Shown one piece after another: positions 48,234-51,624 of a stretch of 64,000 bases of DNA (positions within the stretch are counted from its first letter, which is position 1; each line of letters begins with the position of its first letter). The stretch spans positions 248,001 to 312,000 of the forward strand of contig JACGCN010000049.1 of assembly GCA_014905825.1 (NCBI GenBank). Direction: 5' to 3'. The stretch is from Lyophyllum atratum. Lineage: Eukaryota; Basidiomycota; Agaricomycetes; Agaricales; Lyophyllaceae. A program made the position numbers and the translations under genes. The notes under the pieces were generated by a model. The model searched no databases and was not told where the DNA came from. It worked only from the letters and a program-made list of their open reading frames with translations.

Positions 48234-51200
48234 TCAAACCTCCAAATCCTCCACATCCTCCTCCCCCCCCTTGCCCAAATCCAACTTCCTCTTCCTCCCC
48301 GGCATATACGTCCCATCCCCATACCCCACCCCCGCCTTCTTCCTCAACGCATCCAAGTCCTGCTCCGCCTCCTCCGCCCACTCGAGCACCAGATGCCGCC
48401 CGAGCAAATGCGTGTGTCTGAGCGCGGCATACGCGTTCTCCGCCTCGGCCCGTGACACGAAGTCGAGGAAGGCGAAGCCCCGTGTGCGCGAGTCGAATTT
48501 TTTGGGGAGGCGGACTGATTTGAGGTGTCCATGGGATCTGGGGGTACCAAATTATCAGTATGGGAAAGGCAAGAAGGATGGAAGGAAGGAAGCACATACC
48601 CAAACAACGCCTGAACATCCTTCTTCGTAGCCTCGAACGGCACATTCTTCACAATCATCTTCGTCGTCCTGCTCCCCCCCTTCCCCCCCTCCCTTCCCCT
48701 TCTCCCTCCCCTCCTCCGCCCCCCTTCCCGCAAACTTCACATGCAGCGCATGCCCATCCAACACGAACCCCTGCATCCCACTCAGTGCCTTCCTTGCCGC
48801 CTCCGCGTCCTTGAACCCCACGAACCCGTACCCCATACTGAGTCGGGGCCCCTCGGGTCGCTTGGGGTCGGGCTTGGTCTGCACACGTGCAAAGGAGAAG
48901 GCGGGGAGGTGCCGGAACATCTTCGTCAGGCGCTCCTGCGTCGTCGAGAACGCTAGGTTCTTCACATACAGCGTCGCACCCCCCGTTATATCCTGCTCTT
49001 TCCCCGCATCCCGGTCGTCCCCATTTTCCACAGCAGCACCAGCAGCAGCATCGTCGTCCACCCCCATCTCCTGCTCCGCGATCCTGACGCCGCGGAGTGC
49101 GGACCCCTCGGGAAGCCTATACGTCGACGGCCCCGGCACGACTCCCTCCTCAAACATCCCCAGTGGTCCCTTCTCCAGATAAATCACAGAATTGCCCAAC
49201 CTCCTATACGCCACACCCTTCCACGCCCCCCTCGCCTCCTCCGCCCCCGCAAACTCCACCACCGCCATCGTCCCCGCCGGCGGCACAAGCACCCTCACCA
49301 GCGCCCCATGCGGCTCGAACAGCTCCCGGATGGTCTCGGACGAGGTCCCGTACGGGATGTTCTTAACGAGGATGATGGTGTCGGAGCGGGCGCGGGAGGA
49401 GAAGGACGTGAGAGAGACGCCTTGGGAGGTTAGGTAGGCTTGGGTTTCTTGGATGATGTGGGTTTCGGCGAGGGCGAGTTTTACGGCGGCGTTGTCCCCG
49501 CTTTCGGGGTTGAGGATGGAGGCTTTGTCGATGTTGAGGCGGTCTGCGACTGAGGAGGCTACGGCGTCGCTCTGCGTAGAAATCCGAAGGTAAATATCGA
49601 GACATGGGGATTGAGGGGGAGAGACGAACGTTCATGTAGAGCATGCTCCAATTAAACTCCTGCCCGGCCGTAGCCTTCCGCTTCGCGTGCTTATCCTCCT
49701 TGACGCTCTTCTTCCGCCCCTCTGCCTCCTCGATCTGGGCTTTGCCCTTCCGGTCCACGGCAGCGAGGATATGGATGAGCCGCCCCTGGAAGGACTTGCG
49801 GTCGAGGGCTTCGTACGCTGCGAGGGCTTGTGAGGCTTGGGCAAAGGTGACGTAGGCGACGCCTTTGGGCTGCTTTGTCGTTAAGTCGATGGGTATATGC
49901 ACCTATTCGGAAGGAGACACAGATACGTCAGTAAGGTTCGAGTAAAGGGAGGAAGGAAGAAAGGAGATCAGAAATTGTTTCTACTATCGGTATTCCTGAA
50001 GGATCAGCATCCCCGAAGGTCTGATGTCCCTATGCATTTTTTCATCACCTCGATGAAAAGGAGACATAAATTACCTATAGGAAAAAAGAACGAGGTATCA
50101 GTATGAGTTTCGTTCTATAACAGCAACAGAAGAAAGGAAAGATCAGAGATTTTTCTACTATCGGATTCCAAGAGGATCAGCATCCCCGAAGGTCTGATGT
50201 CCCTATGCAAGTTTTTCATCTTTTCGCCCAAAGAGCATGTGTTTGGTGTAGTGAAAGACGGTTCTTACCTGAAAAACAGATGGGTGGTTAGCAAACAGCA
50301 TAAGCACAATGCGGAGGGGACGAAGAAGAGGGAAAGAGGCTCAGTATCTACTATCATGGATTCCTGAAGGATCAACATTCGCTGGTAGGCGTCTGATGTC
50401 CCTATTTAGGTTGTCATCACAGCCAACAACCTCGTCATGCGAGGAGATGAAGAGAGGGGGAGGGAGGAAGGCTTACCTGAGATATTTCGCCAAAGGGCTT
50501 GAAGAGCTCGAGGAGATCGGTGTCCGTGCATGAGAATGCCAGATTGCGCACGAATAGACGTGCAGTCTGCAAGATTGTCTCGACGGTCGGGTCTTTCGGA
50601 GCTTCAGGTTCCGCAGGCTGTTGTTCCTTTGCCTGGCAAAGAACGTTTCAATATTTGTGCTTCGGACGAAGATAGCTTTAGCACCAACCGGAAGCGCCTG
50701 TTCTGGCCCCTCCTCATCGTCAGACTGCTCAAACGCTTTCTCTACCACATCCGCCGCCTTCGACATGCGCTGCTTCATCCAATCCAGGTCAGAGATGGTC
50801 TCATCGCGCGTCTCCGTGTTGGTATGGTCGGCCATGGGTACGTCGTCAGCGACTTGCGGTTCGGCCACCGTGATGATAGTCGGGTCGGGCTGAGCTTCGT
50901 TAGCCCACGTTGGGCCCTTTTTCGTTCGGTTCTGCATTACTTTCATGTATTCATCGAGCTGAGAGTTGGACTCTGCTGGTGCCGATTTTTCAGCGGCCTT
51001 GGACTTGGGGAGTTTGTTGGAGACGGCATCGTCGTCGCCGGGGGATGGACCCAGCCGAGGTCGTTTATTCGGGCGTGGCTGAGGCGCATCCTTCGCACCC
51101 TAGATGCATGTTCAATGAGACATAGAGCAAGGACTGATAAGAAAGGAGACGAACCTCAATGACGTTCACGCTGATTCTCGTCGAATCAATAAATGTCCGA

Positions 51201-51400
51201 TCAAAATACTCCTTCGCAGCCAACGCCTCCTTCTCAGTCTTATATCCAACAAACCCAAACCGGCGTGAAGTGCCGTCCTGCTTCAACGCGACCTTGAAAT
51301 CAGTCAACGTCCCACCCGGACCGCCTTTCTGCTCAAAATGCTCGCGCAGCCTCGCCGGCGTCGCATACGCCGGCAAGTTCTTGATTATAAGCCGCGACAT
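48234..51400 (-). CDS. MRD1: Multiple RNA-binding domain protein 1 (five RRMs)
   Basis: Nucleolar pre-rRNA-binding factor needed for early 18S rRNA processing in yeast (RBM19 in animals). The start MSRLIIKNLPAYATPARLRE opens RRM1 (with RRFGFVGYKTE). A charged linker follows (KRPRLGPSPGDDDA, ISDLDWMKQRM). RRM2 is LFVRNLAFSC...GVAYVTFAQ, RRM3 IILVKNIPYGTSS, RRM4 LYVKNLAFSTTQ...GYGFVGFKDAE and RRM5 MIVKNVPFEATKKD...GFAFLDFVSRAE. The C-terminus is RKRKLDLGKGGEEDVEDLEV. Order and number match fungal Mrd1. The intron inside RRM2, between GEISQ and VHIPIDL, spans 49903-50476 and is really three abutting introns with one snoRNA each. The gene shares a 224-bp divergent promoter with prefoldin subunit 3. 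Confidence 0.92.
49964..50053 (-). ncRNA. box C/D snoRNA C, in the third abutting MRD1 intron
   Basis: Box C is GTGATGA (50042-50048) and box D is CTGA (49968-49971). The D' guide region GCATAGGGACATCAGACC is identical to copy B. GATAGTAG is separated from box D by about nine bases. B and C resemble each other more than either resembles A, suggesting two rounds of duplication. Confidence 0.75.
50073..50076 (-). other. abutting splice sites AG|GT (zero-length exon), second junction
   Basis: The minus strand reads TTTTTTCCTATAG|GTAATTTATG. It separates intron B from intron C (49903-50074, 172 nt), which ends CCGAATAG before the exon GTGCATATA. Confidence 0.75.
50139..50227 (-). ncRNA. box C/D snoRNA B, in the second abutting MRD1 intron
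   Basis: Same family as the one at 50337. Box C is AAGATGA (50216-50222, one base off consensus) and box D is CTGA (50143-50146). It keeps GCATAGGGACATCAGACC and GATGCTGATCC, shared exactly with copy C. The GATAGTAG segment is present but lies about ten bases from box D, so only the D' guide is likely to be active. Confidence 0.7.
50267..50270 (-). other. abutting splice sites AG|GT (zero-length exon), first junction
   Basis: The minus strand reads CTGTTTTTCAG|GTAAGAAC. A full polypyrimidine 3' splice site is followed at once by a full 5' splice site. It separates intron A (50269-50476, 208 nt) from intron B (50075-50268, 194 nt). Confidence 0.8.
50337..50425 (-). ncRNA. box C/D snoRNA A, in the first of three abutting MRD1 introns
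   Basis: The minus strand has box C GTGATGA (50414-50420) and box D CTGA (50341-50344), with a GGC/GCC terminal stem just outside. Internal AATAGGGACA is followed by D'-like CAGA, and GATAGTAGATA directly precedes box D. From memory of yeast 25S rRNA, ATAGGGACA and GATAGTAGATA are complementary to neighbouring parts of UGUCCCUAUCUACUAUC. The five-nucleotide rule from the D'-like box would place a methyl group at the C equivalent to yeast C2337. Box, stem and position in the intron are seen; the target is inferred. Confidence 0.75.
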
Positions 51401-51624
51401 AATGAAGCTCGTCTAAGTAATTGTCAATGTCAGCCGCGAACCCACGAAGGAAGAGATAGAATTACCACAGACCTTGAGAGAAAAGCTCCAGTCGTCGAAA
51501 AAATAAAGATTTTTATAACAACACTGATCCCTCCAATCGAACTCCGCCACGGCCATCTCCGCGTCCTCTCCATCTCTTGGTGAAACACCACATCGACCAA
51601 ATTGAAATTGTGGAACACGTCGAT
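51401..51624. promoter_or_regulatory. divergent promoter of MRD1 and prefoldin subunit 3
   Basis: Only 224 bases separate the two start codons. An A-rich block (GAAAAAATAAAGATTTTTATA) lies near the middle. A possible 5' UTR intron of MRD1 (GTAATTCTAT...ATTACTTAG) lies just before its ATG. Joint control of a ribosome-assembly gene and a chaperone gene is plausible but not shown. Confidence 0.5.

Follow-up and report, generated by a model that had tools for sequence, protein, structure and literature searches.

We analyzed a 64,000-nucleotide (nt) stretch of the mushroom Lyophyllum atratum (Agaricales, Lyophyllaceae; contig JACGCN010000049.1, positions 248,001 to 312,000), hereafter the window, in which the gene for MRD1 (multiple RNA-binding domain protein 1, or RBM19) is interrupted by a 574-nt interval. 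By sequence, this interval reads as three complete introns set directly one after another, separated only by zero-length exons, and each contains one box C/D small nucleolar RNA (snoRNA) of the same family. We propose that the three abutting introns are removed stepwise with one snoRNA in each lariat, a reading to which we assign a probability of roughly 0.7. The original prediction, made from the same DNA, had described two exact AG/GT junctions, units of 208, 194, and 172 nt, and a separate donor, acceptor, and snoRNA in each unit, and all of this agreed with our check of the sequence. In the order of transcription, the features are as follows (a slash marks a splice boundary).

48234..51400, minus strand: MRD1, from ATG to TGA
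50477..50632, minus strand: upstream MRD1 exon, ending in ...GEISQ (CTCAG)
50269..50476, minus strand: unit 1, a 208-nt intron; donor CAG/GTAAGC, branch site CTAAC 19 nt from the end, acceptor TTTTTCAG
50268..50269, minus strand: junction 1, a zero-length exon; TTTTTCAG/GTAAGAAC
50075..50268, minus strand: unit 2, a 194-nt intron; donor CAG/GTAAGA, branch site CTGAT 23 nt from the end, acceptor TTCCTATAG
50074..50075, minus strand: junction 2, a zero-length exon; TTCCTATAG/GTAATTTA
49903..50074, minus strand: unit 3, a 172-nt intron; donor TAG/GTAATT, branch site CTGAC 25 nt from the end, acceptor CCGAATAG
49630..49902, minus strand: downstream MRD1 exon, beginning with GTGCATATACCC (VHIPID)

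To score the splice sites, we trained models of the donor, acceptor, and branch site on 89 predicted introns of 45 to 120 nt from the window. They came from a simple gene finder of our own, which at one of two penalty settings returned 114 introns; we removed the three units and 22 introns outside the length range. Its output was noisy: it fused MRD1 with its upstream neighbor and laid a plus-strand gene over part of MRD1. Because it also capped intron length at 300 nt, the fact that it picked the three units does not count as evidence for them. Relative to the 89 training introns, the donors of units 1, 2, and 3 fell at the 44th, 54th, and 33rd percentiles, the acceptors at the 100th, 100th, and 70th, and the branch sites at the 60th, 85th, and 100th, with both internal acceptors scoring above every training acceptor. 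Judged by sequence, the donors that would be regenerated at the joint as each unit is removed also lie within the usual range, at the 54th percentile for exon CAG plus GTAAGA and at the 36th for CAG plus GTAATT.

The tetramer AGGT occurs four times in the 574 nt, of which two are the claimed junctions, and therefore it proves nothing by itself. However, in 3,000 dinucleotide shuffles of the interval, none had even one junction that reached the lower of the observed donor, acceptor, and branch-site values. On both strands of the window, only the two junctions passed all three thresholds among 520 AGGT sites, and no site passed among 1,606 in 200 kb of contig C61, which carries a second copy of the intron; these thresholds were post hoc, having been taken from the junctions themselves. 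By summed score, the two junctions ranked highest in the window (22.6 and 22.4), with a moderate margin over three other sites that scored from 20 to about 21, and none of the contig C61 sites reached 22. A chance origin of both junctions is thus unlikely.

The second copy of the intron (C61:692798-693368) is 90% identical, with units of 205, 193, and 173 nt, and it retains both AG/GT junctions and all three snoRNAs. From the surrounding alignment, we read this copy as an allele. Counting window positions only and leaving out bases unique to the other haplotype, the spacers differ at 45 of 285 sites (16%) and the snoRNAs at 7 of 241 (P = 3 × 10−7), which points to clear constraint on the snoRNA bodies. 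All splice elements together differ at 2 of 48 sites (Fisher P = 0.04 against the spacers), which is suggestive of constraint on the junctions.

The three snoRNA copies, one per unit and each 80 to 81 nt long, are located as follows.

50341..50420, minus strand: copy 1; box C GTGATGA, box D' CAGA, box D CTGA, with the end of box D 72 nt from the 3' end of the unit
50143..50222, minus strand: copy 2; degenerate box C AAGATGA, box D' CAGA, box D CTGA, 68 nt from the 3' end of the unit
49968..50048, minus strand: copy 3; box C GTGATGA, box D' CAGA, box D CTGA, 65 nt from the 3' end of the unit

Copies 1 and 3 match the consensus box C (RUGAUGA) and box D (CUGA) on both haplotypes, and copy 2 is off at one position of box C, which reads AGGATGA on the other haplotype. 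The core pattern occurs three times in the window against 0.00 expected. A whole-genome search of the 64.8-Mb assembly found six copies, three on each of two contigs and all within this intron, although a search by exact pattern could miss diverged copies.

The distance from box D to the acceptor of its own unit is nearly constant, at 72, 68, and 65 nt in the window and 70, 67, and 66 nt on the other haplotype. As a control, an RPS30-like gene of the same genome whose intron carries snR60 gave 70 nt. If the whole interval were instead one intron, then the first two snoRNAs would sit 438 and 240 nt from the acceptor. Searches for SNORD24 and SNORD18 as further controls found no match, though such a search does not show absence. 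The family snoZ13_snr52 was also tried and gave four matches over the cut-off, but all were dropped after the two we inspected (L032 and L035) showed no clear C/D boxes. As a side observation, the snoZ13_snr52 matches L032 to L035 form pairs about 0.8 kb apart on two contigs (C83 and C86) and perhaps represent another repeated RNA.

In all three copies, the stretch ATAGGGACA adjoins the D' box CAGA. It is putatively complementary to a stretch of 25S ribosomal RNA (rRNA), and a second stretch, GATAGTAGA, is presumably complementary to the directly adjoining rRNA. The complementarity of GATAGTAGA extends to box D in copy 1 only; in copies 2 and 3 it ends 7 and 8 bases short of that box, and the three copies may thus guide different targets. 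Pattern and 5.8S family searches found no ribosomal DNA in this genome. No Rfam family matched the copies at its gathering score; the best matches, both to copy 1 and both below the cut-off (E values of 0.3 to 0.5), were the box C/D families Afu_335 and snoMe28S-Cm2645. A pattern search of viral contigs found no match for the snoRNA, and six single-strand RNA folds gave z-scores of −1.1 to 1.3, lending no support for structure. In Neurospora crassa, the snoRNA CD36 (snR64/U74) is tabulated as a 90-nt intronic snoRNA with a D' guide for 26S-Cm2299 (PMC2780460). The MRD1 snoRNA is likewise intronic by position, with a putative guide at D', whereas it is present in three tandem copies of 80 to 81 nt. 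Based on this table row and the sub-threshold Rfam matches, the MRD1 snoRNA resembles snR64/U74.

Our MRD1 translation of 646 residues is 100% identical, over 99% of its length, to the public L. atratum protein FPV67DRAFT_1612778 (P0001). The interval (50476..49903, minus strand) is a phase 0 intron between Q303 and V304 of that protein and interrupts an RNA recognition motif (RRM) stretch at residues 277 to 347. Joining 50477 to 49902 yields GEISQ/VHIPID, and the four-exon translation across this joint is contained in the public protein. The interval has stops in all three frames and is far longer than three other MRD1 introns, which measure 55, 56, and 58 nt. The protein has five RRM stretches. 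Its best match among solved structures is a poly(A)-binding protein, and its single RRMs match the RBM19 structures 2cph and 2cpf as well as the mouse cDNA entries 1whw and 1whx, which we take to be RBM19 also. Rbm19/Mrd1 is described as a ribosome biogenesis factor (PMC3440411), and Lim et al. (2021; PMC8476143) report conserved snoRNA introns in the ribosome-related genes RPL7 and NOG2, with which MRD1 as a host is in keeping.

Two further observations concern the MRD1 models. At 48683-48690 (minus strand, in the 3' part of the gene), the window haplotype has one more base in a G-rich run than the other haplotype, which by our reading is in frame; the extra base may be a sequencing error or a real frameshift. 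The public protein departs from its homologs at this position, with HVKGREGG where they have HVKFAGRG. The public protein also starts 32 residues upstream of the MSRL start of P0002 and P0006 (window 51401-51556, minus strand), and by our reading this extension passes a short intron ending at 51413, so that it looks doubtful.

In the proposed mechanism, the units would be removed one after another, probably from 5' to 3'. Each removal would join ...CTCAG to the next unit and thereby recreate CAG/GTAA, the donor for the following step. Every unit would leave as its own lariat, to be debranched and trimmed to one snR64/U74-like C/D snoRNA, so that one MRD1 transcript could give up to three. Such a dependence of intronic snoRNAs on debranching is consistent with a Fusarium Dbr1 deletion, in which five of them are reported to decrease while their lariats increase (PMC9606315). 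We regard the array as real and probably functional.

Several considerations weigh against this interpretation. The three introns are read from DNA sequence, and the site models derive from noisy gene predictions. The donor of unit 3, at the 33rd percentile, lacks a G at position +5. The degenerate box C means that the snoRNA of copy 2 may be weak or dead. The spacing control is a single snoRNA gene (snR60, with two allelic matches of which one was read), and the internal junction elements taken alone differ between haplotypes at 1 of 32 sites, a borderline result (P = 0.06). Finally, the splicing products that Luo et al. (2013; PMC3596301) describe for comparable introns also fit one functional donor that chooses among three acceptors.

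Of the alternatives, the one that survives best, though we consider it unlikely, is a single 574-nt intron with a snoRNA cluster, in which the internal AG/GT sites are unused relics and nucleases free the snoRNAs from the lariat or the pre-mRNA. The original prediction had held that removal as one intron could not release three snoRNAs, which was overstated, as intronic snoRNA clusters have been reported in rice and Drosophila (PMC2780460). The public protein is identical whichever way the interval is removed, and the missing G at +5 of the unit 3 donor likewise speaks for this alternative. Unused sites would nevertheless be expected to decay, whereas the junctions are intact against a spacer divergence of 16% (keeping in mind the borderline value for the internal elements). 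The two internal acceptors also rank above all 89 training acceptors, and this alternative puts only the last snoRNA at the usual distance from an acceptor.

An arrangement in which the first donor is joined to any of the three acceptors appears rather improbable. Isoforms that keep unit 2 or unit 3 would decay, and the array would set both the level of MRD1 and its snoRNA output. The stops in each frame suit this scheme, Luo et al. (2013; PMC3596301) allow such a reading of their own products, and 6 of the 120 best-listed MRD1 models discussed below have extra residues near the joint, which may be retained isoforms or just prediction errors. However, a purely alternative acceptor would have no need of a following donor, and the donors of units 2 and 3 are within the range of other introns. 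It is very improbable that the copies are pseudo-snoRNAs of incidental occurrence or that the junctions are a product of chance. The lack of a gathering-level Rfam match, the degenerate box C of copy 2, and the folding scores would fit this view, but the snoRNA bodies differ between haplotypes far less than the spacers, the translated core turns up again in the MRD1 models of Agrocybe, Suillus, and (by reading only) Hygrophoropsis, and the shuffles make chance unlikely.

As to the origin of the array, the original prediction favored a tandem triplication of one whole intron including its splice sites, which our alignments did not bear out. With the splice consensus removed, the spacers had no clear homology (z-scores of −0.1 to 2.0), and even for the best pair, the 3' flanks of units 2 and 3, 32 of 1,000 shuffles scored at least as well; we do not accept whole-intron triplication as shown. 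The snoRNA copies, in contrast, are homologous (z-scores of 9 to 15). Copies 2 and 3 are closest, with 72 of 82 alignment columns identical, followed by copies 1 and 3 (64 of 87) and copies 1 and 2 (60 of 86). The protein sequence at the joint is unaltered, and for this reason the array probably originated through snoRNA introns that were gained or duplicated at an AG/GT site, and not by exon loss. AG/GT flanks the intron on both sides (CTCAG/GTAAG and AATAG/GTGC), and therefore unequal exchange between these four identical bases would copy an intron exactly and could create zero-length exons in one step.

A search with MRD1 matched 1,330 proteins, and the following figures refer to the best 120. 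The 25-residue stretch across the joint is ungapped in 113 of them, part of it is missing in one, and six have extra residues. In three of these six, the snoRNA can be read in translation among the extra residues: Agrocybe pediades P0065, with two copies, Suillus tomentosus P0110, and Hygrophoropsis aurantiaca P0097, the last by our reading alone. In the remaining three (P0005, P0046, and P0053), the extra residues at or next to the joint could not be read as a snoRNA. A composite query of translated intron pieces and inserts matched only P0065 (E = 1.5 × 10−10) and P0110 (E = 0.027), which is a weak check because the query included their own inserts. It missed P0097 even though that peptide was in the query, so the search overlooks short inserts, and a protein search with the Agrocybe insert matched only itself. 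A second A. pediades model, P0045, has no insert, and the extra residues are therefore retained or mispredicted pieces of intron. S. tomentosus and H. aurantiaca belong to the Boletales, and the inserts indicate that the same snoRNA lies in the same intron in Agaricales and Boletales.

By our count, the two snoRNA copies in P0065 lie 92 nt apart in the model. Copy A fits unit 2 best (52.0, against 45.5 for unit 3 and 37.4 for unit 1), and copy B fits units 2 and 3 equally (75.6 and 75.5). The stretch between them aligned to the 5' start of unit 3 (GTAATT...) with a score of 23.7, which 3 of 200 shuffles matched, and to the continuation of unit 2 with 22.3, which 26 of 200 matched. Read from the protein model, this small difference would imply that about 80 nt were removed there as an intron, up to an acceptor with GTAATTA directly after it, as at junction 2. 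Two translated copies at the same joint in Agrocybe suggest that the array is old. Tentatively, then, MRD1 might hold an old, maintained ratchet array that predates the split of Lyophyllaceae and Agrocybaceae, with three consecutive splicings per mRNA and the release of three snR64/U74 copies, although we find this doubtful as it stands. If it were true, then the dose of the snoRNA would be multiplied and would follow MRD1 output. The snoRNA-bearing intron also explains why at least two public MRD1 models from other mushrooms, and probably a third, have nonsense insertions at the joint.

Several known systems resemble parts of this arrangement. In Drosophila and vertebrates, long introns contain ratchet points, at which a donor lies immediately after an acceptor and is formed anew by the splicing reaction. 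Such points shorten a very long intron, whereas the MRD1 units are only 172 to 208 nt long and contain a snoRNA each. Fungal stwintrons are described as one apparent intron removed by consecutive reactions, in which an internal intron splits a splice element and thus forces the order (PMC8469720). In MRD1, the donor, branch site, and acceptor are whole in all three units.

The original prediction knew of no such arrangement in fungi, which was wrong, as exon-less snoRNA introns have been described in non-coding ascomycete hosts (Luo et al. 2013; PMC3596301; Donovan et al. 2016; PMC5033589). Luo et al. report juxtaposed snoRNA introns with no exons between them, and their expressed sequence tags (ESTs) and reverse transcription PCR products fit stepwise splicing from 5' to 3'. 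Of 42 spliced ESTs from an ascomycete cluster III, 18 lacked intron I, 14 lacked introns I and II, and 10 lacked all three. The MRD1 array shares with these hosts its abutting introns and, by sequence, the snoRNAs inside them. Their hosts, however, are non-coding and polycistronic with different snoRNAs in each cluster, while MRD1 is a protein-coding basidiomycete gene with one snoRNA family three times. Luo et al. attribute the exon-less introns to exon deletion; the MRD1 array has neither a non-coding host nor an exon lost by deletion, and as the reading frame is kept exactly, exon deletion does not explain the array.

Donovan et al. (2016; PMC5033589) describe two splicing pathways for Candida cluster II, of which recursive splicing at a zero-size exon is the minor one by RNA-seq, and list an exon size of zero for cluster III of Debaryomyces hansenii, after Luo et al. 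The snR57-55-61 and snR41-70 clusters of Candida and Debaryomyces thus resemble MRD1 in their zero-length exons, snoRNA introns, and regenerated splice sites, but they differ in having non-coding hosts, nested splicing, and one-base exons as well (PMC5033589). In the open-licence literature, searched at the level of titles and abstracts, we found no report of a protein-coding gene, or of any basidiomycete, with exon-less snoRNA introns. The protein-coding host, the basidiomycete, and the single snoRNA present three times are what appear to be new here. MRD1 would extend such arrays from non-coding ascomycete hosts to a gene in which each splicing step must be exact, and its short units offer a compact natural system for distinguishing stepwise splicing from acceptor choice, which Luo et al. 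left open.
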